Assembly (NCBI RefSeq): GCF_000737325.1
Contig: NZ_CP011125.1
Span: forward strand, 7,192,001-7,256,000
Direction of reading: 5' to 3'
From: Sandaracinus amylolyticus
GTDB lineage: Bacteria; Myxococcota_A; Polyangia; Polyangiales; Sandaracinaceae
DNA length: 64,000 nt
Below, one piece after another: positions 8,423-21,011 of the stretch. A model generated the notes under the pieces. That model was given only the letters and a program-made list of their open reading frames with translations. It did not search any database and was not told the DNA's origin. The position numbers and the translations under genes were made by a program. Numbering within the stretch: the stretch's first letter is position 1; the number at the start of each line of letters is the position of its first letter.

Positions 8423-10096
8423 CCGCGATGCAGCGACCGTCGTCCGGCCCGGCCCCGCGTAGGTCCAGCCGAGCGTCGACCGGCCGCTCGCGTACGCGCG
8501 GATCACGAGGCGCCCGACGCTCCCGTCGGCGAGGCGGATCGCGTAGGTCGTCGCGCGCGGCGAGACCGCGTGCGTCGTGGGGTCGTACGCGTACCAGCCC
8601 TCGAGCGCGCCGTTGCCCGAGTACGTCGGCGAGCCCGGGGGGCCGGGCATCGTGCGCTCGTCGTCGGCGACGAAGCCCTCGCTCGGCAGCTCGAGCACCG
8701 TGGCGGGATCGGCGACGTTCGTGTCGATCGCGCCACCCTGCCCGGGGCCGCTGGTGCCCGAGCTCGTGCGGTACAGCGTGCGGCTCAGCGCGAGATCCCA
8801 CGTCGCGTCGGTCGCCGGCTCCGCGATCGTGACGACCGCGGCCGCGTGCAGATCGACGTATGCCCAGCTCCCGCTCGTCGACGCCTCGACCTCGATCGCG
8901 TGCTCCTGCGGCACGACGTCGATCGCCTCGAGCGACAAGCGGAACGTGCCGTCCTCCCACGACCAGATGCGAAGGCGCGCGTACTCGCCGCGCGCGGTGC
9001 GCACCACGAAGGTCTCGTCCTTCGGCGTGACCGCGTGCGTCGTCGGATCGTAGTCGTACCAGGACGCGAGGATCGGGCTGCGCGCTTCGGCCGGCGCGCC
9101 CGGGATGCCGCTCGCCGCGACGTCGTCGACGACGAACCCGATCGTGTCGGTCTCGATGACGCGCTCGAGCTCGACCGCGCCCGCGCTCCGCGCGCCGCCG
9201 AGGCCGGCGCCGCTCTCGCCCGAGTTGGTGCGGATGAGCGTGCGACGGATCGCGAGATCCCAGTCGAGCGAGGTCTCGGGATCCGTGATCGTGACGACGC
9301 CCGCGCCGACGCGGAGGTAGACGAACGCATCGCGTGCGGACGCGTCGATGGTGATCGCGTCGCCCGGGATCGGATCGACGCCCGCGTCACCGCCCGCGTC
9401 GGGACGATCGGGCGGGCCGGCGTCGGGGAGCTCGACGTCGCCGCCTCCGATGCGCGCCCAGCGGAACGCGATCACCGCGGGCGTGCCCGCGTCGTCGTAG
9501 TAGCCGTCGATGCGCAGCTTGAAGAAGTGGCCCTCGACGCTGCGCACCACGAACACGACGTCGCGCGGCGTGAGGCGATGCGACGAACGATCGTAGTCGT
9601 ACCAGTCGTTGACGCCCTCGACGCCGCCGTTGAACGCGCTCTCGGGGAACGCGTCGGTGTCCTCTTCGATGTCGACGCCGTCGGCGATCCAGCCGGTCTC
9701 GGGCGGAGCGTCGAGCGCGTCGAAGTCGGCGGCGGGCAGGCGTGCCGCTGCCGCGCCGCCGGTGCCGCTCGCGCCGCCGTTCGTCGTGATCGAGAAGCGC
9801 GTGAACGCGAGATCCCAGTCGCGCGAGTCGAGCGGATCGGCGGGCGTGACCGCGAGGCCGGACTCGAGATCGAGATAGGCGGTGCCCTCGGTCGCGTCGA
9901 CGATCGTGGTGATCGTTCCGTCGTCGTTCACCGTGTGGCGGAACGGGCCGCTCGAGGGCGGGATCGAGCCGTCCTGGACGGGCCCCGCGTCGTGCGCGCC
10001 GGCGTCCTCTCCGTCGTCGTCGGAGCGCAGATCGGGCGCGCACGCGAACGTGGTGAGCGCGATCGCGGCGAGCGCGATGCGTGTGGTGGTCGTCAT
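8420..10096 (-). CDS. Lipoprotein with three HmuY-type haem-binding domains
   Basis: 558 residues, ATG preceded by AGGAGAAG at good spacing, with a short signal and Cys19 as probable lipidation site. Three copies of the HmuY domain follow, at about 60-215, 248-393 and 399-548. Each has the hallmark WDLA(F/I/L)-R...(T/S)N or TS-G-SG-G-GGA run and a later (D/A)YDPTTH-TP segment. HmuY proteins are surface haemophores that hand haem to a TonB receptor. The next gene upstream is an HmuR-like receptor, matching the known hmuR/hmuY pairing. Known HmuY uses a His pair; each domain here shows one conserved His in the TTHAVTP-type motif, and the pair is not obvious. The ligand may therefore be haem or another tetrapyrrole. 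Domain triplication is unusual. Confidence 0.88.
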   Translation of the reverse strand: MTTTTRIALAAIALTTFACAPDLRSDDDGEDAGAHDAGPVQDGSIPPSSGPFRHTVNDDGTITTIVDATEGTAYLDLESGLAVTPADPLDSRDWDLAFTRFSITTNGGASGTGGAAAARLPAADFDALDAPPETGWIADGVDIEEDTDAFPESAFNGGVEGVNDWYDYDRSSHRLTPRDVVFVVRSVEGHFFKLRIDGYYDDAGTPAVIAFRWARIGGGDVELPDAGPPDRPDAGGDAGVDPIPGDAITIDASARDAFVYLRVGAGVVTITDPETSLDWDLAIRRTLIRTNSGESGAGLGGARSAGAVELERVIETDTIGFVVDDVAASGIPGAPAEARSPILASWYDYDPTTHAVTPKDETFVVRTARGEYARLRIWSWEDGTFRLSLEAIDVVPQEHAIEVEASTSGSWAYVDLHAAAVVTIAEPATDATWDLALSRTLYRTSSGTSGPGQGGAIDTNVADPATVLELPSEGFVADDERTMPGPPGSPTYSGNGALEGWYAYDPTTHAVSPRATTYAIRLADGSVGRLVIRAYASGRSTLGWTYAGPGRTTVAASR

Positions 10097-10217: not shown

Positions 10218-12176
10218 TCAAAGCCGGCCGCGGATGCCGCCGTAGAACGTGCGGGGGCGCAGCGGCAGGTACGCGTCTCCGGCGTCGAGCACGTTGTCGA
10301 TGCCCGCCGAGATCTCGAGGTGGCGCTCGAAGCGCTTGTAGATGCGCAGATCGAGCTGCGCGGCCCACGGCGAGTAGATCAACTCTTCGTCGACGTAGAA
10401 CGGGCGCTCACCGGTGAGCGCGCAGCGCGCGGTCGCGCCGAGATCCCACTCGCGGTGATCGAACGTCGCGCTCAGCGTGATGCGATGCGCCGCGCGTCCC
10501 TCGAGCGCGCGATCGTTCTCGTGATCCCACGCGTGCGTGAACGTGTAGCTCGCGGCGAGAGAGAGCTCGCGGATCGGGCGCGCGGTGAGCGACGACTCGA
10601 TGCCCTGCGTCGTCGCGGACGCGACGTTGTCGTACGTGAAGAGCGTGCCGTCGGGGCTCTCTTCGGCGGTGATCGTCGTGATCAGCCCGTCGACGTCGTT
10701 GCGGAAGAGCGAGAGCGATCCGCGCAGCTCGGTGATCGGCGTCCACTCCGCGCCGAGCTGGTAGCTGCGCGACGTCTCGGGCCCGAGGTCCGGGTTGCCG
10801 AGCACGACGTACCCGACGGTCGGGTTCTCGAAGCGCAGCAGCAGCTCTTGGAACGACGGCGCGCGGAAGCCGGTGCCGAACGACGCGCGCAGCACGAGCT
10901 GACGCACCGGATCGAAGCGCACCGCGAGCTTCGGCGAGAGCTGCGTGCCGTACTGCGAGTCCGCGTCGACGCGCACGCCGGGCACGAGCACCAGGCGCAC
11001 GTCGTCGTCGATCACGGTCCACTCGTCCTGCACGAACGGCGACGCGCGGAAGCGCGTGCCGACTCCGTCGAGCCGATCGGACTCGAGGCGCTGGAAGAGC
11101 TCTTCGAAGCCGAACGTGAGCAGGTGCGTGTCGACGGGGATGTCGAGCTGCACGAGCAGCTGTCCGAGGTCCTCGCGGTGATCCTGGTGCTCGTCGAGCG
11201 CGGACGCGCCGCGCTGATCGCGCAGGTACTGCTCGCGGAAGATCGCGTACGACGCGCGCGTGACGAGGCGGATCGCGCCCGCGAGCGCCCACGACGCGCC
11301 GAGCCCGCTCTGCAGCTGCTCGGCGAGCTGCGCGCGATCGAACACCGCGCCCGCGTCGTTGCGATCGACGCCCGAGAGGCCGCGCTGCATGTACTCGGCG
11401 CGCGCGTCGAGCGAGAGCGTCGGATCGACGCGCCACCGCACGTCGCCGCCGACCGACCACTGCAGGCGCGCGCTGCCGTCGGTCGCGCGCTGGTCCTCGG
11501 GGATCGTCGGATCGCCGCCGCGGCGGAAGGGCTCGGCCCAGTGGAACCCGCCCGAGAGGCGCAGTGAGACGTCGCCGAGACGCGCGCCGGCACGGGCGGT
11601 CGCGTCGGCGATCCCACCGCCCTCGCCTCCTCCGCCGCTCGCGCTCGCGTCGAGCTCGAGCTCGTCGCGCGTGCGACGCGTGATCACGTGGATCACGCCC
11701 GCGATCGCGTCGGAGCCGTAGAGCGCGCTGGATCCGCCGCGCACGATCTCGACGCGCTCGACGTCCTCGAGCCCGTAACGACCGAGATCGATCGCGCCGC
11801 CGACGCGACCGGGCACGCGCTCGCCGTCGACGATCACGAGCACGTGCTCGGGGTCGAGGCCCTGCATCTGGATCGCGTCGCCGCGGAACGAACGCGTCAC
11901 CAGCATCCCCGGCTGCTCCTCGAGGAGCTCGCCGAGATCGCGCGCGCCCGAGCGCTCGATCGTCGCGCGATCGATCACCTCGACGCGCACCGGGCTGTCG
12001 TCCTGCGCGACCTCGGTGCGCGTCGCGCTGACCACGACGCTCGACGTGCAGAGCTCGTCGTCGGGTGGGCACTCGGGCGGCGCCTCGCGGGGCGCAGTGT
12101 CTCCCGACTGTGCGTGGGCATGCGCCGCGCAGAGCGCGATCGACAGCGAAACGGCGAGGGCTGGGAAGCGGCGCAT
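10218..12176 (-). CDS. HmuR-like TonB-dependent haem/iron receptor
   Basis: 652 residues from the ATG opening MRRFPAL, with a signal peptide cleaved near AHAHA|Q. A plug domain (about 45-170) has the usual SGARDLGELL, GLDPEHVLVIVDGERV and IVRGGSSALYGSDAIAGVI runs. The barrel carries the haem-receptor signatures FRAP (437-440) and NPDL (461-464). It ends in the aromatic-rich strand FYGGIRGRL; the usual C-terminal Phe is absent. Haem receptors strip haem from carriers and move it into the periplasm. The downstream HmuY-type lipoprotein is its probable partner, and a good Fur box lies about 110 bases upstream. The larger same-frame ORF upstream of the start lacks protein-like composition. No clear Shine-Dalgarno sequence precedes the start. 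Confidence 0.92.
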   Translation of the reverse strand: MRRFPALAVSLSIALCAAHAHAQSGDTAPREAPPECPPDDELCTSSVVVSATRTEVAQDDSPVRVEVIDRATIERSGARDLGELLEEQPGMLVTRSFRGDAIQMQGLDPEHVLVIVDGERVPGRVGGAIDLGRYGLEDVERVEIVRGGSSALYGSDAIAGVIHVITRRTRDELELDASASGGGGEGGGIADATARAGARLGDVSLRLSGGFHWAEPFRRGGDPTIPEDQRATDGSARLQWSVGGDVRWRVDPTLSLDARAEYMQRGLSGVDRNDAGAVFDRAQLAEQLQSGLGASWALAGAIRLVTRASYAIFREQYLRDQRGASALDEHQDHREDLGQLLVQLDIPVDTHLLTFGFEELFQRLESDRLDGVGTRFRASPFVQDEWTVIDDDVRLVLVPGVRVDADSQYGTQLSPKLAVRFDPVRQLVLRASFGTGFRAPSFQELLLRFENPTVGYVVLGNPDLGPETSRSYQLGAEWTPITELRGSLSLFRNDVDGLITTITAEESPDGTLFTYDNVASATTQGIESSLTARPIRELSLAASYTFTHAWDHENDRALEGRAAHRITLSATFDHREWDLGATARCALTGERPFYVDEELIYSPWAAQLDLRIYKRFERHLEISAGIDNVLDAGDAYLPLRPRTFYGGIRGRL

Positions 12177-12283
12177 CGGCGACTCGGGTGGAGCGCTCGC
12201 TCGCGCAGGGCCCTGGTGGGAGCGTGCGGGGCACGCGGACGGGAGGGCCCGGAGCAGGCGAGGCGAGTGGCGACTGGAAAGTT

Positions 12284-12302
12284 GATAACGATAGTCATAT
12301 AC
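12284..12302. promoter_or_regulatory. Fur box in the divergent receptor/kelch promoter region
   Basis: GATAACGATAGTCATATAC matches the E. coli 19-base Fur consensus at 14 of 19 positions by hand count, and stands out as AT-rich in this genome. A second partial site, GAGAGTCATTCTC (12312-12324), follows. Position between two divergent starts (12176 minus, 12390 plus) suggests iron repression of both genes. Confidence 0.65.
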
Positions 12303-12389
12303 AGTGCCTCTGAGAGTCATTCTCGACAAGAGAAAAACGTGTCCATCGTTCGCAGGCAGACCGCCGCGAACGCCTTCGGAGGGCGTGCC

Positions 12390-14462
12390 GTGAAGCGCAG
12401 TAAACTGAGTCGAATCCACGTGTTGCACGTGATGGCCGCGCTCGCGGCCAGCGTCGTGGGCACCCTGTCGTCGGGCTGCGGCGGCGCCTCGCCGCGCGCG
12501 GACGAAGCGCGGGCGACCGCCACGCCGGCCGCGGGATCGGGCGGGCAGAGCGCGGCGGATGCGCGCGTGTCGAGCGCGGCCACGGCGCGCGTCGAGGGCG
12601 ACTTCCACGCGGTGCTGCCGACCGCGGTGACGAGCTTCGGCGCGGCGTCGGCGAACGGCGCGCTCTACGTGCTCGGCGGCTATCACGGCACGCCGCACGC
12701 GTACGTGCCCGAGGATCAGTCGGGCGCGTTCTCGCGGCTCGATCTGTCGCGCACCGGCGCGTCGTGGGAGACGCTCCCCGAGATCGCGCCCGCGCAGAGC
12801 ATCGCGCTCGTCGCGCACGGCGCGCGCGTGTGCCGCACCGGCGGGATGCGCGCGGTGCGCGAGAACGAGCGCGTTCGTCTGCGATCGATCGACGAGGCAG
12901 GGTGCTTCGATCCCGCGCGCGGATCGTGGGAAGCGCTTCCGTCGCTGCCGTCGCCGCGCTCGTCGCACGAGGCTGCGGTGGTCGGCGACACGCTCGTCGT
13001 CGCGGGCGGCTGGGCGCTCGAGGGCGAGGCGCCGGGGACGTTCGCGCGCAGCTGGCTCGCGCTCGATCTCGCGCATCCGGAGCGCGGCTGGCGCGAGGCC
13101 GAGGCGCCGTTCGCGCGTCGTGGGCTCGGCGTCGCGTCGCTGGGCGAGAGCGTGATCGTCGTCGGTGGGCTCGACGAGGCGGGCGAGATCTCGTCGCGCG
13201 TCGACGTGCTCGACGTGGCGCGCGGCACGTGGTCGCGCGGGCCGGACTTTCCGGGTGATGCGTTCGGCGTCGCGATCGAGCGCGCGGGCGATCGTGTGAT
13301 CGCGAGCGGGCGCGACGGCGTGGTGTGGTCGTGGCGCGGCGGCGACGACGCGTGGCAGCGCGTGGGCACGATGATGTTCCCGCGCTTCTTCCATCAGCTC
13401 GTCGCGCGGGGAGACGACGAGGTGATCGCGATCGGCGGGATCCGCGGGATGGTCGACGCGCCGCGCACCGCGCACGTGGAGGCGATCGCGCTCTCGCCGC
13501 GCACGTCGCCCCGCGTGACGGTGCTGACGATCGACTCGCCGATGCGCGCGAAGAACCGCCAGGGGCTCTTCGTGCACGACGACGCGCTCCACTTCTTCGG
13601 CGGCAACGTGTCGCTCGAGCAGCACGACTTCGAGCCGCAGCACTTCGTCGCGGAGCACCACGCGCTCGATCTGCCGTCGCTCTCGTGGACGCGGCGCGCC
13701 GACTATCCGTTCTCGCGACAGACGATCCAGACCGTCGCCGTCGAGGATCGCGGGATCGCGATCGGCGGGTTCGGGCACGAGGGCACGACGCCGTCGACCG
13801 GCCAGGCGCGCACGCAGGCGGAGGCGTTCACGTACTCGTTCGACGAGGATCGCTGGACGCCGTGGAGCGCGCTGCCGGTGACGCGTTCGCAGTTCGGTCT
13901 GGTCGCGGACGGCGAAGGCGCGCTGTGGGCGCTCGGCGGGCTCGACTACGACCCGGCGCGCGAGGGCGAGGACGCGTTCCGGCACCTCACCGAGATCGTG
14001 CGCGCCGACGCGAGCACCGGTGAGTGGCAGGACGCCGGCGTCGCGATGCAGGGCGCGCGTCGTGCGTTCGGCGGCGCGCGCATCGGCGACGTGATGTACG
14101 TCGTCGGCGGGATGCGCGGCGAGTTCCAGCTCGTCGAGGACTGTCAGGCGCTCGATCTGCGTGCGCGCGCGTGGCGCACGATCACGTGCCCGCGCACGCC
14201 GCGCCTCAACCCGCAGCTCGTCGCGATCGGCGATCGCCTCTACCTCGTCGGCGGCACGTCGCGCGGTGAAGGCGGGCTCGCGGCGGATCGCACGATCGAG
14301 GTGTACGACCCGCAGCGCGACGCGTGGTCGGTGCTGATCGAGGATCTGCCGATCGAGCCGAAGCACCTGCGCGCGTTCGAGCTGCGCGGGCGGCTGGTGC
14401 TGGTGTCGACGCACGACGCGGAGCCGGTCGCGCGCGTCGCCGTCGTGACGCTGCCGGAGTGA
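12390..14462 (+). CDS. Kelch-repeat lipoprotein
   Basis: 690 residues from a GTG start with GGAGG seven bases ahead. The signal ends with an LSSGC lipobox. From about residue 85 onward there are about nine to ten kelch motifs, each with a Gly-Gly pair and a downstream Trp or Tyr. Examples are LGGYHG, VVAGGWAL, IVVGGLDEAG, AIGGIRG, IGGFGHEG, ALGGLDY, VVGGMRG and LVGGTSRGEG. They would build one or two beta-propellers on the cell surface. No enzymatic motif is evident; binding of protein, carbohydrate or a metal chelate is possible. It diverges from the haem receptor gene with a Fur box in between, so coregulation by iron is a reasonable inference. A hairpin terminator follows. Confidence 0.88.
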   Translation: MKRSKLSRIHVLHVMAALAASVVGTLSSGCGGASPRADEARATATPAAGSGGQSAADARVSSAATARVEGDFHAVLPTAVTSFGAASANGALYVLGGYHGTPHAYVPEDQSGAFSRLDLSRTGASWETLPEIAPAQSIALVAHGARVCRTGGMRAVRENERVRLRSIDEAGCFDPARGSWEALPSLPSPRSSHEAAVVGDTLVVAGGWALEGEAPGTFARSWLALDLAHPERGWREAEAPFARRGLGVASLGESVIVVGGLDEAGEISSRVDVLDVARGTWSRGPDFPGDAFGVAIERAGDRVIASGRDGVVWSWRGGDDAWQRVGTMMFPRFFHQLVARGDDEVIAIGGIRGMVDAPRTAHVEAIALSPRTSPRVTVLTIDSPMRAKNRQGLFVHDDALHFFGGNVSLEQHDFEPQHFVAEHHALDLPSLSWTRRADYPFSRQTIQTVAVEDRGIAIGGFGHEGTTPSTGQARTQAEAFTYSFDEDRWTPWSALPVTRSQFGLVADGEGALWALGGLDYDPAREGEDAFRHLTEIVRADASTGEWQDAGVAMQGARRAFGGARIGDVMYVVGGMRGEFQLVEDCQALDLRARAWRTITCPRTPRLNPQLVAIGDRLYLVGGTSRGEGGLAADRTIEVYDPQRDAWSVLIEDLPIEPKHLRAFELRGRLVLVSTHDAEPVARVAVVTLPE

Positions 14463-14509: not shown

Positions 14510-16663
14510 TCAGGTCGATGCGGTGATCGTCGCGAGGTGATGGCGCGCGTGCGCGAGCACCGCGTCGTCGCCGGTGCGCAGCGCCCACTCCGCGATCACG
14601 ACGGCGTACGCGGCCCAGCGCTCGATCGTGTGCGACACGATCGCGGGCCAGGTGACGCCGCCTGCGCGCGCGAAGCGATCGACGACCGACTCGAGCGCGT
14701 CGCGCCCGTAGCAGCCGAAGAACATCGCGAGATCGAGCGACGGATCGGTGGCGCGGGCCTCGGTCCAGTCGAGCACGCCGGTGATGCGTGACGCGTCGTC
14801 GAGGAGCAGATGGCCGGGGTGGAGGTCGCCGTGCGCGAGCGCGACGTGGGCAGGCCACGACGCGTCGTCGTCGATCCATCGCTGCCATCGCGACCACACG
14901 GCGTCGGACGGCGCGAGCACGTCGCGTGTCGCGTGCATCGCGCGGGCGAGCTCGGCGCGCGCGTCGCCGGCCGCTTCGACGCGCACGCCCGCGTCGTGGA
15001 TGCGATCGACGGGGATGGACTGCAGCGACGCGATCAGGCGCGCGTAGGTGTCGAGGAACGCGTCGGGAGGCGCGCTCGGATCGAACGCCCACTGGAGCGC
15101 GCCCGCGTCGTCGAAGCGCCAGCCCGGCGTGCCCTCGATCCGCCGGTACGCGATCACGTCGCGCGCGTGCACGCGCCACTCGGGCACGGCGGCCGGAAGC
15201 GACGGCGCGACGAGCCGGAGCACGCGCGCCTCGCGCTGTGCGGACGCGATCACGTCCGGTCGGCGCGGCGTGCGGACGACCCACGGCGAGCCCGCGTCAT
15301 CGCGCGCGTGGAGCACGAGGAAGTCGAGCCCGCTCGCGTCGAGCGCGTCACGCTCGGGCGCGACGCGGAGCCCGTAGCGCGCGGCCGCGCCCACGAGATC
15401 CGCCGCGGTCGTGATCGCGGGGAGCGGAGGCAGCGCGGTGCGCCATCGCTCGAGCACGTCGGGCCGAGCGCGGACCGCGAGCGCGGTGCCGGGCTCGTCG
15501 TGGTGCTCGGAGACGACGTGTGCCTCGGCGCGGATCTCCGCCATCAGGCGTCCTTCGGTGAACGGAACGACGAGCACGTCGTGCTCCTCGTCCCGCGCGA
15601 AGAACGCGACGATCGCGTCGCGAAGTCGGCGCACGTCGGCGGGATCGTGCGCGCTGATCGCGAGGGCACCGGGCAGCTCGCGCAGCAGCGACGCGCGGCG
15701 CTCGGGATCGACACGATCGATCTTGCTCAGCACGATCCGCGTGGGGGACGTCGCGCCGATCGTCTCGAGCACCTCGCGCGTGACGCGCAGCTGCTCGCGA
15801 TGCTCGGGGTCCGATGCGTCGACGACGAGGAGCAGCAGGTCCGCGTCGCGCGCTTCGTCGAGCGTCGTGTGGAACGACGCGACGAGCGCGTGCGGGAGGT
15901 TCCGCATGAAGCCGACCGTGTCGGAGACGAGCACGCGCGGCGTCGTCGCGGGCGAGAGCGCGCGCACCGTGGTGTCGAGCGTCGCGAAGAGCGCGTCTTC
16001 CACGAGCACGTCGCTGCCCGTCAGCGCGCGCAGCAGCGACGACTTGCCGGCGTTCGTGTAGCCGACGAGCGCGACGCGCGGCACGTCACGACGCGCCGCG
16101 GCCTGGGTCGCGCGCGAGGCGCGCAGTCGCTCGACCTCGCGCTCGAGCCGCGCGCTGCGCTCGCGCAGCTGCTGCTTGCGCAGCTCGACCTCGGTGTGGC
16201 CGCGCGCGCCGCGACCTCCACCGCCGCCCTCGCGATCACGTCGCGCACCGTCGTCGCGCACGCGAGGGATCTCGTAGGCGAGCCGCGCGAGCTCGACCTC
16301 GAGCTGCGCGAGGCGGGTGCGCGCGCGCTGCTCGAACACCCGCAGCACGACCGCGGTGCGGTCGAGCACCTCCACGTCGAGCTCGATCTCGAGCTCGCGC
16401 TGTGCTCCGGGATCGAGCGCGCGATCGACGACGACGAGCACGCGCTGATCGGGCGCGCGCGCCAGCGCGTCGATGCTCGCGCGCACCTCGGCGCGCTTGC
16501 CGGCGCCGGGATCGCGCGTGAGCGGGACGGTGTGTGCGACGCGGATGCCGAGCCCGGCGAGCAGGCGCTCGAGCTCGGAGGACGAGGCCTCGCCGCTCGG
16601 CGCGAGCAGGATGGCGAGGTCGGACGATCGATCGGTGGACGAAGAGCTTCGGGGACGGGTCAT
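14510..16663 (-). CDS. HflX GTPase fused to macrolide phosphotransferase-like kinase
   Basis: One uninterrupted frame of 717 residues; GAAGGAG precedes the ATG by six bases. Residues 1-410 are HflX: N-terminal domain, GTPase with G1 GYTNAGKSSL (201-210), G2 TLDTT (228-232), G3 DTVGF (248-252), G4 SKID (313-316, Ser instead of Asn/Thr), then the C-terminal ferredoxin-like part. HflX splits stalled ribosomes and, in several bacteria, protects against macrolides and lincosamides. Residues 420-717 match macrolide 2'-phosphotransferases: WVVRTPRRPDV, VPEWRV, RWQRWIDDDASWP, the catalytic loop HGDLHPGH (611-618, Asp613) and LDWTEA (Asp632 for Mg). The linker is only about ten residues. Both halves keep their catalytic motifs, so this is probably a working bifunctional antibiotic-response protein; drug specificity is inferred. 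A sequence join across two genes is unlikely because the frame and codon use are continuous. Confidence 0.9.
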   Translation of the reverse strand: MTRPRSSSSTDRSSDLAILLAPSGEASSSELERLLAGLGIRVAHTVPLTRDPGAGKRAEVRASIDALARAPDQRVLVVVDRALDPGAQRELEIELDVEVLDRTAVVLRVFEQRARTRLAQLEVELARLAYEIPRVRDDGARRDREGGGGGRGARGHTEVELRKQQLRERSARLEREVERLRASRATQAAARRDVPRVALVGYTNAGKSSLLRALTGSDVLVEDALFATLDTTVRALSPATTPRVLVSDTVGFMRNLPHALVASFHTTLDEARDADLLLLVVDASDPEHREQLRVTREVLETIGATSPTRIVLSKIDRVDPERRASLLRELPGALAISAHDPADVRRLRDAIVAFFARDEEHDVLVVPFTEGRLMAEIRAEAHVVSEHHDEPGTALAVRARPDVLERWRTALPPLPAITTAADLVGAAARYGLRVAPERDALDASGLDFLVLHARDDAGSPWVVRTPRRPDVIASAQREARVLRLVAPSLPAAVPEWRVHARDVIAYRRIEGTPGWRFDDAGALQWAFDPSAPPDAFLDTYARLIASLQSIPVDRIHDAGVRVEAAGDARAELARAMHATRDVLAPSDAVWSRWQRWIDDDASWPAHVALAHGDLHPGHLLLDDASRITGVLDWTEARATDPSLDLAMFFGCYGRDALESVVDRFARAGGVTWPAIVSHTIERWAAYAVVIAEWALRTGDDAVLAHARHHLATITAST

Positions 16664-17065
16664 CTCGGACTCCTTCGCCGCGCGATGGCGCGGACGTGGG
16701 GACGACCCGGACGCGGGTGGGCACGACGCTCGGGGACACGACGCAGCGTCCACGAGATGCTGCGGGCAGCTCGGAGGTCTGCGACGTGATGGCTCCTCGA
16801 TTGCGCGATGCACCGCGCCCGGGCCTTCCGGTGGGAAGGGACGGTTCGGGCGGGTTGCTCGCGACGCGCGTGCGGCGGGTTGCGCGCGACGGCGTCGCGG
16901 TGCTCAGCGCAAACGGAGCGACTTCAACACCAGGCGCAGGATGGCCGCGAGCACGCGCTAGCGCCAGCGGGATCTCGTTCGCGGCGAGATGAGAGCGAGA
17001 TTAAATCGACGCGATTCATCGGTCCTAAGCTGCATCACAGCGGAGGAGACGTTCTCCTGTCACGC
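16664..17065. promoter_or_regulatory. 402-base divergent intergenic region
   Basis: Lies between the HflX-Mph start and the first PD40 lipoprotein. It holds the HflX ribosome site (GAAGGAG) at its left end. Near the right end, TGAGAGCGAGATTAAATC (16990-17007) shares TGAGAGCGA with the reverse strand of the delta-60 upstream region and is a possible iron-type operator. AGGAGA-CGT-TCTCCT at 17045-17059 is a small hairpin containing the only good Shine-Dalgarno sequence before the lipoprotein. No gene-like ORF or leader peptide stands out. Confidence 0.45.
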
Positions 17066-18577
17066 ATGCGAGACGTCGCCCTTGCGTCCGGCATCGCTGC
17101 GATCGCGCTGTGCGCGTGCACCGTCGAGGCGCCGGGTGACGACGCGGACGCGTCGATCGCGCCCTTCGACGCCGGCGCCGATGCGGGCCGCGGCTACCTC
17201 GTGTTCTTCGACGAAGGGCTCGACGAGGCGATCGAGCGGCGCTTCGAGTCGGCGATGCCCGCATCGAGCGAGCCGCCGCGCATCGTCTATCCCGAGAACG
17301 GCACGCTCGTGCCGCCGAACCTCGTCGGCGTCGACGTGCACTTCACCGGGCGCACCTACGACACGTTCGAGCTGACGTTCTCGCAGCGCGGCGCGCGCGC
17401 GATCGTGGTGTACGCGTGGTGCCGTCCGGTCGGCTCGGGGTGCGTGCTGCAGCCGTGGGACGAGGTGTGGAGCGCGCTCGCGTCGCGGCGGAACATGGGC
17501 CCGTTCGAGATGCGCATGCGCGGGCTCGCGGGAGAGCGCGTCAGCGCGCCGTCGGAACGGGTGGAGCTCGAGCTCGCGCAGGAAGCGATCCAGGGCGCGC
17601 TCTACTTCTGGTCGACCGATCCGCCGTCGATCCGTCGTTACGACTTCGCGCTCGGGCGGCGCAGCTCGGAGCTCTACCTGAGCCAGACCGAGGAAGGCAC
17701 GTGCGTCGGATGCCACGCGATCTCGCGCGACGGATCGCGCATCGCGGTCGGCGTGTACGACGCGACGAACGGGTTCCGCGCGCGCATCTACGACGTCGCG
17801 ACGCGCTCGCAGGTGCTCGCGAGCGAGATCGACGCGCCGCTCCCTGCGTATGGCGCTGCCGACGATCTGCTGGTGAGCGGGAGCCCGCCGCCCGCCGACG
17901 GGATGGATCGCCCGCTGCGCATCGTGTCGGGCGCCGATGGTCGCGTGCTGCACGAGTTCGGCGTGTCGGGCGTGTCGGCGGACTGGTCGCCCGATGGATC
18001 GCGCGTGGTGTTCGAGGGCGCGATCGACGCGGAGACGCGCGCGCTGCAGCTCATCGCGCGGAGCGGCGAGGCGTGGGGCGCGCCGACGGTGATCGAGACG
18101 GCGGGCACCGAGGAAGAGCACGGGCCCGCGTTCGCGCCCGACTCGGAGTGGATCGGATACACCGGGCGCGTCGACGCGCGATCGGTGCTGGTCGCGACGC
18201 GCGGATCGGACGTGCCGCCGGTGGTGCTGCAGCGTGCGCTCGGTGCGAGCACCGACGCGACGTGGATCCGGTGGAACCCGAGCCCGTATCTGCAGCAGGG
18301 CCGGCGCATCTACTGGCTCACGTTCTCGAGCGGGCGCGCGCACGGCGTGGTCGATGGCGGCGAGCGCCAGATCTGGATCGCGGCGTTCGATCCCGAGGCC
18401 GACGCGGACGATCCGTCGCGCCCCGCGCTGCGCTTCCCGGGTCAGCGCGGCGACGTCGACAACTTCATCGCGGAGTGGACGACCGAGGCGCGGAGACAGC
18501 CCTGCGAGGACGACGACGACTGCCCCGCGGGCGAGGTGTGCGTCGACGGGTTCTGCTTCCCGGAGGGGCCGGAATGA
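17066..18577 (+). CDS. PD40/TolB-like lipoprotein with CxxCH haem motif
   Basis: 503 residues from the ATG opening MRDVALASG, with probable lipidation at Cys18 and an Asp/Ala/Gly linker. Residues 45-190 form a beta-rich domain with paired Cys. CVGCHAISRDGSRIAVG (213 onward) combines a c-type haem motif CVGCH with the start of a TolB-like WD40 propeller, continuing with SADWSPDGSRVVFEG, FAPDSEWIGYTG and WNPSPYLQQGRRIYWLTF. The C-terminus has a small Cys knot, CEDDDDCPAGEVCVDGFC. One haem could be attached if the haem ligation pathway acts on it. It overlaps the Cys-rich gene by ATGA. The pair is repeated immediately downstream. Function unknown; the Shine-Dalgarno sequence is 17 bases away, so the start is less certain. 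Confidence 0.8.
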   Translation: MRDVALASGIAAIALCACTVEAPGDDADASIAPFDAGADAGRGYLVFFDEGLDEAIERRFESAMPASSEPPRIVYPENGTLVPPNLVGVDVHFTGRTYDTFELTFSQRGARAIVVYAWCRPVGSGCVLQPWDEVWSALASRRNMGPFEMRMRGLAGERVSAPSERVELELAQEAIQGALYFWSTDPPSIRRYDFALGRRSSELYLSQTEEGTCVGCHAISRDGSRIAVGVYDATNGFRARIYDVATRSQVLASEIDAPLPAYGAADDLLVSGSPPPADGMDRPLRIVSGADGRVLHEFGVSGVSADWSPDGSRVVFEGAIDAETRALQLIARSGEAWGAPTVIETAGTEEEHGPAFAPDSEWIGYTGRVDARSVLVATRGSDVPPVVLQRALGASTDATWIRWNPSPYLQQGRRIYWLTFSSGRAHGVVDGGERQIWIAAFDPEADADDPSRPALRFPGQRGDVDNFIAEWTTEARRQPCEDDDDCPAGEVCVDGFCFPEGPE

Positions 18578-19404
18578 GGGGGCGCGCGCTGTGTCTCGCG
18601 CTGGTCGCGCTCTGCGGCTGCACGCGCTTCTACGACGTGCCCGACGCGGGCGAGGACGCAGGTGCGATCGCGGACGCCGCGATCGACGGCGGTGCGATCG
18701 CGGACGCCGGCGTCGACGCCGCGGATCCCCAGGCGCGCTGCGACGAGGAGGGCGAGCTGTGCTGCCTCGGCGCGACGTGCGGCGGAGGGCTGCTCTGCGT
18801 GGAGGGCACGTGCACGAGCGCGGGCTGCGGCGCGATCGGCGGTCCGTGCTGCGAGCTCGATCAGTGCGATCCCGGCGGCGTGTGCGAGGACGGTACGTGC
18901 GTCGACGCGCCGTGCGGCGCCGATGGCGCGGCGTGCTGCGAGGGCGAGACCCCGTGCGACGAAGGGCTCGCGTGCCTCGGCGATCGCTGCGGCCCGTGCG
19001 GCGCGGCCGATCAGGACTGTTGTCCGGGGATGGTCTGCGACGCGGGCATCGAGTGCCTGCAGAACCTCTTCGGAGCGTGGGTGTGCGTCGCGCCGCCGCA
19101 GTGCGGGGAGCTCGGCTCGGAGTGCTGCGCGGAGGGCGCCGCGTGCGGCGCCGGCCTGGGCTGCGTCGCGTCGGACTTCGGCGCGCCGATCTGTCTGCCC
19201 GGACCGGCGTGTGGCTCCGACGGACGCGCGTGTTGCGAGGGCTCGCCGGCGTGCGGGCTCGGGATGGACTGCACGAGCTCGGAGGACGGAGTGGACCGCT
19301 GTCGGCGGTGCGGCGAGCACGGGCTCGCGTGCTGCGTGGGCGGTGATCCTCCGTGTGGTCCGGGACTCACGTGCAGCGATGGTCTCTGCGGGCTCGCGCC
19401 GTGA
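18574..19404 (+). CDS. Cys-rich lipoprotein, copy A
   Basis: 276 residues, start overlapping the upstream stop (ATGA). Signal MRGRALCLALVALCGC gives a lipid-anchored Cys followed by a D/A/G/I linker. The rest is about 14 percent Cys in repeated units of the form CG-x(2)-G-x-x-CC-x-G-x(3-4)-C-x-x-G-L-x-C, such as CGAIGGPCCELDQCDPGGVCEDGTC. These look like small disulphide knots of the EGF/Dickkopf kind found in myxobacterial surface proteins. No catalytic residues. The coupling to the PD40 lipoprotein, repeated in the next cassette, suggests that the two products act together at the outer membrane. Confidence 0.82.
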   Translation: MRGRALCLALVALCGCTRFYDVPDAGEDAGAIADAAIDGGAIADAGVDAADPQARCDEEGELCCLGATCGGGLLCVEGTCTSAGCGAIGGPCCELDQCDPGGVCEDGTCVDAPCGADGAACCEGETPCDEGLACLGDRCGPCGAADQDCCPGMVCDAGIECLQNLFGAWVCVAPPQCGELGSECCAEGAACGAGLGCVASDFGAPICLPGPACGSDGRACCEGSPACGLGMDCTSSEDGVDRCRRCGEHGLACCVGGDPPCGPGLTCSDGLCGLAP

Positions 19405-19439
19405 GGAGAGCGAGCCCGGACAGGTATTGGAGCGGTGAC

Positions 19440-21011
19440 ATGACGATGCGATGTCTGTGCGCGTGTCTCGCGATCTGCGTCGTAGCTTGTTCCTCGAGCG
19501 ACGACGGCTCCGATGCGGGAGCGAGCGACTCGGGGGCGGCGGACTCCGGCGTCGACGCGGGGCTCTCGTATCGAGTCTTCTTCGACGAGGGATTCGGCGA
19601 GGAGACGAGAGAGCAATTCCGCACTGCGTCTCCCGCGTCGATCGCCGCGCCGGAGATCGTCTATCCGGAGACTGGCACGCTCGTCCCGCCGAACATGCTC
19701 GGGATCGACATCCACTTCCGCGTCGCCGTGGTGCAGGCGTTCGAGGTGACGTTCGCGCAGGGCGGGATGCCGTCGGTCGTCGTGTACACGCGGTGCGCGC
19801 CGGTGGGCGACGGGTGCGTGTTCCAGCCGTGGAGCGAGGTGTGGGAAGAGGTCGCGGCGCGGCGCGCGGCGGGGCCCTACTCCATCACGATCCGCGGGCT
19901 CGCCGGAGATCGCGTGACCGAGCCCTCGGCGGCGATCGAGCTCGAGCTCGCCGACGAGCCGATCGAAGGCGGCCTCTATTATTCGTCGGCGACGGACTCC
20001 CCTCCTTCGATCCGCCGGCACGAGCTGGGCCTCGCGCGTCGTAGCGCGGAGCGATTCCTCGACACCGACGGGCTCTTCACGACGCACTCGGTGTCGCGCG
20101 ATGGAACGCGGATCGCGATCAGCTCGGTCGGCAGCGACACCGACGTGATCACGCGTGTGTTCGACGTCGTCACGCGCGCGGAGATCGACGCGCCGTTCGT
20201 GTCGGAGGTCGGATACGTCGCGCGGTACGGGCCCGAGCACGATCTGCTGCTGAGCTCGCAGCTCGCGGATCTGCCCGACACCCGCACGATCCAGATCGTC
20301 CACGACGGCAGCGTCGTGGAGGAATTCGACGTCGGCCCGGGTCACTCCGCGGACTGGTCGCCCGACGGAGATCGCATCGTCTACGACCTGACGGTCGACA
20401 TGCGCGGGTTCCTGTTCGTGTTCGATCTCATGTTGATCGAGCGCGTCGACGGAGCTTGGCAGGCGCCGAGGAAGATCCCGACGCCCGACATCATCGGTGC
20501 TTATTCGCCCTCGTTCGCGCCGGACTCGGACTGGGTCGGATTCACCGCGCTCGACTCCACCGATCAGGACGCGACTGGCACCTTCGCGCCGCTGCTCGTC
20601 GCGACGCGCATCTCCGATGGACGCTACGTGCACCTGCGCCGCGCGCTCGGGGACGTGGATCGATTCCACGAGCGGCCCGAGATCCTGCGGTGGAACCCGA
20701 GCCCGTACACGCACGACGGTCGTCGGATCTACTGGCTCACCTTCTCGACGGCGCGCGACTGCGGGCTGCTGCCCGCGATCGATCACGAGTTCACCGCAGG
20801 GCGGCAGGTCTGGATGGCGGCGTTCGATCCCGAGGCCGATCCTGACGATCCCTCGCGCCCCGCGTTCCGCGTCCCGGCGCAGCGCTGGCGCATCGACAAC
20901 CGGATGGGCGAGTGGGCGCTCACGGTGCGGCGGCCGCAATGCGAGACCGACGCAGACTGCCCCGACGGTGAGCAGTGCATCGACGGCTTCTGCTACGAGG
21001 CGCCGGAATGA
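19440..21011 (+). CDS. PD40/TolB-like lipoprotein paralogue without haem motif
   Basis: 523 residues; GGAG lies seven bases before the ATG. The signal ends in VVAC (Cys17). Close paralogue of the lipoprotein two genes upstream through its whole length: RVFFDEGFGEE, EIVYPETGTLVPPN, SADWSPDG, WNPSPYTHDGRRIYWLTF and the terminal CETDADCPDGEQCIDGFC. At the place of CVGCHAISRDG it has FTTHSVSRDG (212 onward): the His remains but both Cys are gone, so haem cannot attach covalently. This suggests gain in one copy or loss in the other. It overlaps its own Cys-rich partner gene by ATGA. Confidence 0.83.
   Translation: MTMRCLCACLAICVVACSSSDDGSDAGASDSGAADSGVDAGLSYRVFFDEGFGEETREQFRTASPASIAAPEIVYPETGTLVPPNMLGIDIHFRVAVVQAFEVTFAQGGMPSVVVYTRCAPVGDGCVFQPWSEVWEEVAARRAAGPYSITIRGLAGDRVTEPSAAIELELADEPIEGGLYYSSATDSPPSIRRHELGLARRSAERFLDTDGLFTTHSVSRDGTRIAISSVGSDTDVITRVFDVVTRAEIDAPFVSEVGYVARYGPEHDLLLSSQLADLPDTRTIQIVHDGSVVEEFDVGPGHSADWSPDGDRIVYDLTVDMRGFLFVFDLMLIERVDGAWQAPRKIPTPDIIGAYSPSFAPDSDWVGFTALDSTDQDATGTFAPLLVATRISDGRYVHLRRALGDVDRFHERPEILRWNPSPYTHDGRRIYWLTFSTARDCGLLPAIDHEFTAGRQVWMAAFDPEADPDDPSRPAFRVPAQRWRIDNRMGEWALTVRRPQCETDADCPDGEQCIDGFCYEAPE

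Follow-up and report, generated by a model that had tools for sequence, protein, structure and literature searches.

The 64,000-nucleotide stretch of Sandaracinus amylolyticus DNA analyzed here (contig NZ_CP011125.1, positions 7,192,001 to 7,256,000), hereafter referred to as the window, encodes on its minus strand a 717-residue polypeptide chain in which an HflX GTPase is joined to a macrolide 2'-phosphotransferase (Mph). That this protein is a genuine HflX-Mph fusion, as the original prediction had held, is confirmed by one open reading frame, by the profiles of both families, and by its presence in 15 genomes. Given the Arg-Leu-Arg minigene that precedes the gene, the fusion is probably a macrolide-inducible, two-domain resistance protein that would combine ribosome rescue with drug inactivation.

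The gene occupies complement(14510..16663), with its ATG at 16663, its stop codon at 14512-14510, and no internal stops; all coordinates provided below for the gene, its parts, and its leader likewise refer to the minus strand. A GAAGGAG ribosome-binding site, which is a good match, precedes the ATG, and the reading frame is open upstream as far as 16813. The HflX half is delineated by residues ~15-410 (15434..16621) and contains ND1 (PF13167, residues 26-110), the helical domain (PF16360, residues 113-191), the GTPase domain (PF01926, residues 196-313), and a C-terminal domain that extends to residue ~410. It is followed by a junction of nine residues, 411-419 (15407..15433), and by the macrolide 2'-phosphotransferase half, residues ~418-717 (14513..15412). 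No resistance or biosynthetic cluster was seen among the neighboring genes that were checked. These include a protein with three HmuY stretches (8423-10096, minus strand), a TonB-dependent receptor (10221-12000, minus strand), and a Kelch protein of 924 residues (11688-14462, plus strand) whose gene is convergent to that of the fusion. The plus strand at 16808-21011 encodes two lipoprotein-like proteins that resemble each other, one of them bearing a PD40 repeat; the first of these two frames overlaps the leader of the fusion gene on the opposite strand, and its true start thus probably lies further in.

In profile searches, the N-terminal half scored 292.8 bits against TIGR03156, the NCBI equivalog model for HflX (cut-off 216.75), over residues 27-352, and PF13167, PF16360, and PF01926 each exceeded their cut-offs. 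HflX chains of solved structure match this half at 1e-60 to 1e-54. The G1 motif, GYTNAGKSS (residues 201-209; 16037..16063), and the G3 motif, DTVGF (residues 248-252), are intact, and the G4 motif is SKID in the window fusion and NKID in those from Nannocystis. Three groups are separated in an HflX tree of 80 rows: the canonical HflX proteins (HX1), another myxococcal paralogue (HX2), and a third clade, the support for which is 99. This third clade contains every fusion together with five rows that lack an intact fused kinase, namely one decayed fusion, L270, which is described below, and four HflX proteins to which no kinase half is attached. All three kinds of HflX are encoded in the Sandaracinus genome from which the window was taken.

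A distinguishing feature of the third clade is the loop of the helical domain, which in HflX is known to reach into the peptidyl-transferase center (PMC12493154). A comparison across all HflX loci revealed that the usual GGIGxxGPGE[T/S] is replaced in the fusions by GGGG(G)R[G/A]x[R/K]GH[T/S]. In the window protein, the conserved GPGE[T/S] is missing, and GGGGGRGARGH, of a type common to the third clade, is found instead at residues 146-156 (16196..16228). The unfused members of the clade display the same or a related loop, such as RASRGH in Sorangium and RAARGN in genome G754. The length of the fusion loop is that of myxococcal HX2. The HflX half was also considered as an orthologue of HflXr and was ruled out as such, for it belongs to a separate clade and does not have the longer loop of HflXr. 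In light of that difference and of the unusual RGH loop, resistance by ribosome splitting cannot simply be transferred from HflXr to the fusion. By its sequence, the N-terminal half is an HflX by descent, the function of its loop may differ, and with this changed loop it would presumably split ribosomes. In some HX2-type proteins, a shortened loop was observed (RQAGRGAGE or similar, with the GGIGG stretch absent; loci L037-L041, L046, L253, L254, L267, L272, L273, and L281).

The C-terminal half is equally well defined. The Mph(C/M/B/L/A) models scored 212-175 bits over residues ~418-706, whereas the best non-Mph kinase model reached about 27 bits; the APH family profile (PF01636) scored 98.5 bits over residues 443-674. 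As expected, the allele-specific cut-offs of the named Mph enzymes were missed. MphB and MphA match this half at about 1e-55. The catalytic loop, HGDLHPGH (residues 611-618; 14810..14833), and the metal-binding motif, LDWTEAR (residues 631-637; 14753..14773), align with HGDVHAGH and IDWTEAK in MphB and with HGDLYVGH and IDWSEAR in MphA. Of the motifs upon which the original prediction was based, G1, G3, HGDLHPGH, and LDWTEAR are present, and its assignment of the two halves to the HflX and APH/Mph families holds. In a kinase tree of 82 rows, built without an outgroup and hence unrooted, the fused kinases fall within a Myxococcota Mph clade (support 99), the unfused members of which are from Sorangium, Polyangium, Labilithrix, Kofleriaceae, and a Nannocystis paralogue. 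Within this unrooted Mph tree, no placement of the kinase half outside the macrolide kinases was seen, and the grouping with macrolide kinases that had been anticipated was thus borne out. By motifs, profiles, and fold the C-terminal half belongs to the macrolide 2'-phosphotransferase family, and it would be expected to phosphorylate macrolides. With respect to its unfused relatives, the second, stand-alone mph of Nannocystis poenicansa (G130; L055, L058) is present as two overlapping pieces in different frames and is probably broken, while the fusion in that genome stays intact. Remnants of HflX, hinted at by an alignment beginning at residue 374, were searched for upstream of the stand-alone Sorangium and Polyangium kinases and were not found; the extension of these kinases is of low complexity.

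A model of the full-length fusion was predicted with AlphaFold2 using an alignment of 37 proteins from the window and related loci. The mean pLDDT was 89.4 and the pTM 0.74, with values below 50 for loop residues 146-150. When the halves were searched with Foldseek, the top matches of the first were HflXr and HflX on the ribosome, with TM-scores by target of about 0.80 and 0.75, respectively. The second matched MphA, MphB, MphE, and MphH with TM-scores of 0.85-0.91, as compared to about 0.75 for APH(2''), and the structural alignments correspond to 27-35% identity with the solved Mph enzymes. The predicted folds thus agree with the two families proposed at the outset. The HflX half ends in a helix formed by residues 401-410, and the kinase opens with another formed by residues 420-429. 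The pLDDT across the junction is 88-93, which argues against a long flexible linker between the halves. Both halves are complete, and HflX and Mph are joined with almost no linker.

A survey for the same architecture placed the in-frame fusion in 15 genomes from three groups of Myxococcota, namely Sandaracinus, Nannocystis, and Lujinxingia-like organisms. The orthologue in a second genome of the genus Sandaracinus is 89% identical to the window fusion, and those in six of seven Nannocystis genomes are 58-61% identical to it. Seven genomes of one further family carry the fusion, with one copy cut by a contig end; these loci include Lujinxingia vulgaris, a Lujinxingiaceae MAG, and a Myxococcales MAG. 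Among the 377 genomes of a Myxococcota sample, Mph was detected at E<1e-30 in 20, and nine of these have the fused form. A sixteenth fusion, L270, has lost its kinase motifs, with HGAWASEQ in place of HGDLHPGH and LDGWGD at the DW motif, and represents either a pseudokinase or a decaying gene. This decayed-kinase fusion (L270/L335, genome G567) still lies behind a leader, MFILCLVRLR. In the Sandaracinus pair, dN/dS is 0.28 for HflX and 0.30 for the kinase, and in a Nannocystis pair the values are 0.16 and 0.35, respectively; purifying selection (dN/dS 0.16-0.35) is thus acting on both halves. AU tests that forced the fused rows into one clade gave p values of 0.193 for the kinase tree and 0.678 for the HflX tree, such that either a single fusion with later losses or two fusions are possible.

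As noted above, the fusion gene is preceded by a minigene. It lies 241 nucleotides ahead of the ATG in the window (16904..16930) and reads GTG TTG AAG TCG CTC CGT TTG CGC TGA, that is, MLKSLRLR followed by a stop. Such minigenes were first spotted by reading the upstream sequence, and the upstream-ORF scan was run without demanding a Shine-Dalgarno sequence. The Nannocystis fusions have MFAFIRLR, MVAFIRLR, and similar leaders, Lujinxingia and its relatives have MIDCFHIRLR or MIDLFHIRLR, and MWTLLYARLR, MWISHYIRLR, and MRKFCFYIRLR occur at other loci. Altogether, an Arg-Leu-Arg-stop minigene is found ahead of 15 of the 16 fused loci, the decayed L270 included; only the Lujinxingiaceae MAG (L097) lacks one. 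An RLR or RFR minigene also precedes four of the remaining five rows of the third clade (L270 again counted) and most of the unfused kinases of the same clade. None was found ahead of the MphA-like myxococcal kinases or of the 82 other HflX entries (0 of 65 HX2 and 0 of 17 HX1, counts in which some loci are repeated and some upstream stretches are cut). The background rate is 0.010-0.024 such ORFs per 640 nucleotides. The core CGNYTGCGCTGAGC occurs 25 times across six whole genomes. As judged by eye, six of these occurrences form a short [L/I]RLR-stop minigene, and these lie ahead of the fusion gene in four genomes and ahead of mph and the third-clade hflX in Sorangium, with none elsewhere; three more belong to ORFs of 14-17 codons that end in RLR and are not of minigene form. 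The RLR minigene is thus conserved with, and specific to, these HflX and Mph genes.

In Sorangium cellulosum So ce26, the mph gene (L081/L315) and the third-clade hflX gene (L246/L320) are almost 1 Mb apart, and each has its own IRLR-stop minigene. Accordingly, the pair looks like, and is likely to be, a macrolide regulon of two genes, and it corresponds to the fusion in unfused form. No Shine-Dalgarno sequence accompanies the minigenes; as assessed by eye, most of them begin 7-9 nucleotides past a sigma70-like -10 element, suggesting that their translation may be leaderless. In the window, a possible promoter was picked out by eye at 16938..16967 (CTGGCG - 18 nt - CATCCT, 7 nucleotides before the GTG); this placing appears conserved at the other loci, with the weakest match in Sandaracinus. 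The RLR motif is the site of ErmDL arrest with telithromycin and is also an erythromycin arrest site (PMC8298421), and the hflXr study describes it as a hallmark of leaders that sense macrolides (PMC6310831). We infer that a ribosome would arrest on the minigene in a drug-dependent manner and that the fusion gene would thereby be induced. The conserved leader, which was not part of the original prediction, is the strongest functional evidence, at the level of sequence, for the role in macrolide resistance that had been proposed from the domain content.

The region between the minigene and the gene displays what appears to be the anatomy of an attenuator. Segment B, with the consensus GGAAG[G/A]CC[C/G]GGGCGCG and the sequence GGAAGGCCCGGGCGCGG in the window (16829-16813), may pair either with segment A just upstream, the two forming a hairpin (16813..16854), or with segment C (CCCGCGTCCGGGTCGTCCCCA, 16697..16717) near the ribosome-binding site; both assignments are made with moderate confidence. 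The A:B hairpin was predicted from the alignment, with changes on both sides at three of 14 pairs. The B:C pairing of the window has a predicted energy of -33.3 kcal/mol (z -3.7). Across loci, the mean is -29.2 kcal/mol for B with its own C versus -26.1 kcal/mol with C from other loci, and the mean z is -2.9 relative to shuffled C; the pairing is strongest at L082, L258, and L288 and weak in Nannocystis (z about -2). No match to Rfam was found in the leader. The mutually exclusive A:B and B:C pairings suggest, with moderate confidence, an attenuator.

An independent pairing of the same two activities was encountered in Bacillota, with hflX ending within about 110 nucleotides of, or overlapping, the start of a same-strand mph in Rossellomorea, Bacillus pakistanensis, and Oceanobacillus. 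Such adjacency was observed for four of the 57 mph genes in 299 genomes of that order, as compared to ~0.03 expected by chance on our estimate of two hflX genes among some 4000; the species involved are related. The HflX proteins of these operons group with Listeria HflXr in the HflX tree, and the leaders of the hflXr-mph operons are MATIRLRFRALNH, MATIRLRIQGLNN, MASIRLRLQTLKNVN, MASIRLRFQTLYQ, and MATIRLRFQTLNQ. IRLR leaders and terminator-like hairpins were noted for the Bacillota operons (L104:2281, L107:2225, L111:2429, L150:2305; L190, L191, and L203), and these leaders resemble those of inducible macrolide resistance genes. HflX and Mph have thus been combined at least twice, with different HflX clades and in each case behind an RLR leader.

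On the basis of these results, the following scheme can be envisioned. A macrolide-bound ribosome translating the upstream minigene would stall at its Arg-Leu-Arg codons, and the stall would shift the leader RNA between the exclusive A:B and B:C pairings such that the fusion gene is turned on. The HflX half, with GTP, would then bind drug-stalled 70S ribosomes and split them, and the Mph half, presumably GTP-dependent as is its family, would phosphorylate the macrolide 2'-hydroxyl so that the released drug could not rebind. Several observations do not fit neatly with this scheme, namely the SKID sequence at G4 in the window protein, the absence of an RLR minigene at L097, the loss of the kinase motifs in L270, and the weak B:C pairing in Nannocystis. 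The simplest benefit of the fusion is 1:1 co-expression of the two activities, and a direct hand-over of the drug, though conceivable, is speculative. A stronger form of the scheme is the mechanism of the original prediction, in which the kinase would be held at the 50S subunit by HflX and the drug evicted from the tunnel would be phosphorylated before it diffuses or rebinds; it draws upon the short junction of about nine residues, which is confidently modeled, and upon the retention of the fused state across a large divergence (45-60% identity). Nevertheless, the two proteins are the products of unlinked genes in Sorangium and of distinct genes within the Bacillota operons, so single-chain coupling is not needed, and we consider this form rather unlikely. 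Similarly doubtful is the broader proposal that one protein both recognizes and splits a ribosome stalled by a macrolide and phosphorylates the drug on or next to the subunit before it can rebind, as one element of a more widespread HflX-Mph module with independent origins as a fusion in Myxococcota and as an operon in Bacillota, both switched by RLR leaders.

Other readings depart further from that of an inducible resistance protein. The main role of the kinase half might be to sense the drug for HflX or to anchor it, with catalysis being secondary, and L270, which keeps both the fusion and the leader despite its altered catalytic motifs, speaks for such an arrangement. The H[G/A]D...H and DW motifs, however, are kept in all 14 other readable fusions, and L270 has the appearance of decay in one copy, which renders a mainly sensory role quite improbable. 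To our knowledge, myxobacteria are not known as makers of desosamine macrolides. Together with a sequence that does not reveal the substrate and an Mph tree that is unrooted, this leaves some room for a kinase that acts on a myxobacterial product or cell component, in which case the fusion would not be a resistance protein. That prospect is equally slim, for RLR leaders mark macrolide-responsive genes (PMC6310831, PMC8298421), the Mph models outscore other kinase models about eightfold, and a relative from Myxococcus improved the growth of Escherichia coli under erythromycin and azithromycin (PMC8914350), albeit from a gene that sits in another clade of the tree in that study. Finally, an assembly join or a frameshift near residue 415, the artefact that had been of concern in the original prediction, has nothing in its favor and is ruled out with near certainty by the same stop-free, in-frame join in 15 independently assembled genomes, several of which consist of few large contigs. 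The inducible resistance protein with two working domains thus remains the reading that we favor.

HflX-type rescue and Mph inactivation have so far been known as separate defenses. No description of an HflX-Mph fusion was found in the open-licence literature searched, in keeping with the earlier statement that none had been described. Taken together, the fusion, its leader-bearing unfused relatives, and the Bacillota hflXr-mph operons suggest selection for joint action, and with them it can be tested directly whether coupling to drug destruction benefits rescue. Whether the resistance role of HflX depends upon splitting is an open question (PMC12493154). The leader, in turn, is a sequence handle on the macrolide regulons of predatory soil bacteria, for which a mediating role in the dissemination of resistance genes has been proposed (PMC8914350).

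Among the closest known systems is HflXr of Listeria (lmo0762, with the rli80 leader), an HflX paralogue that likewise provides macrolide and lincosamide resistance under an RLR leader-peptide switch (PMC6310831); unlike the fusion, it is a single-domain protein of another HflX clade with a longer helical-domain loop and no kinase. MphA, MphB, MphE, and MphH share with the fusion the whole kinase fold and the catalytic motifs, but they are stand-alone enzymes of about 300 residues, whereas here the kinase is attached to an HflX as its C-terminal half. The aminoglycoside resistance enzyme AAC(6')-APH(2'') is likewise a bifunctional fusion with an APH-type C-terminal half; both of its activities, however, are drug-modifying, in contrast to the combination of a ribosome-rescue GTPase with a drug-modifying enzyme observed here. 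As in ErmDL-type leaders, a short Arg-Leu-Arg ORF is located ahead of a macrolide resistance gene (PMC8298421), but the leader of the fusion stops immediately after RLR, has no Shine-Dalgarno sequence, occurs in myxobacteria, and precedes an HflX-Mph gene. The msr(E)-mph(E) and mef(C)-mph(G) pairs also combine Mph with a second macrolide defense, either ribosome protection or efflux (PMC5776109), although as separate genes on mobile elements and with an ABC-F protein or a pump, rather than HflX, as the partner. Both the parts and the kind of switch are thus familiar, and what is new with respect to the literature searched is the union of HflX, Mph, and switch in one protein that is probably inducible.
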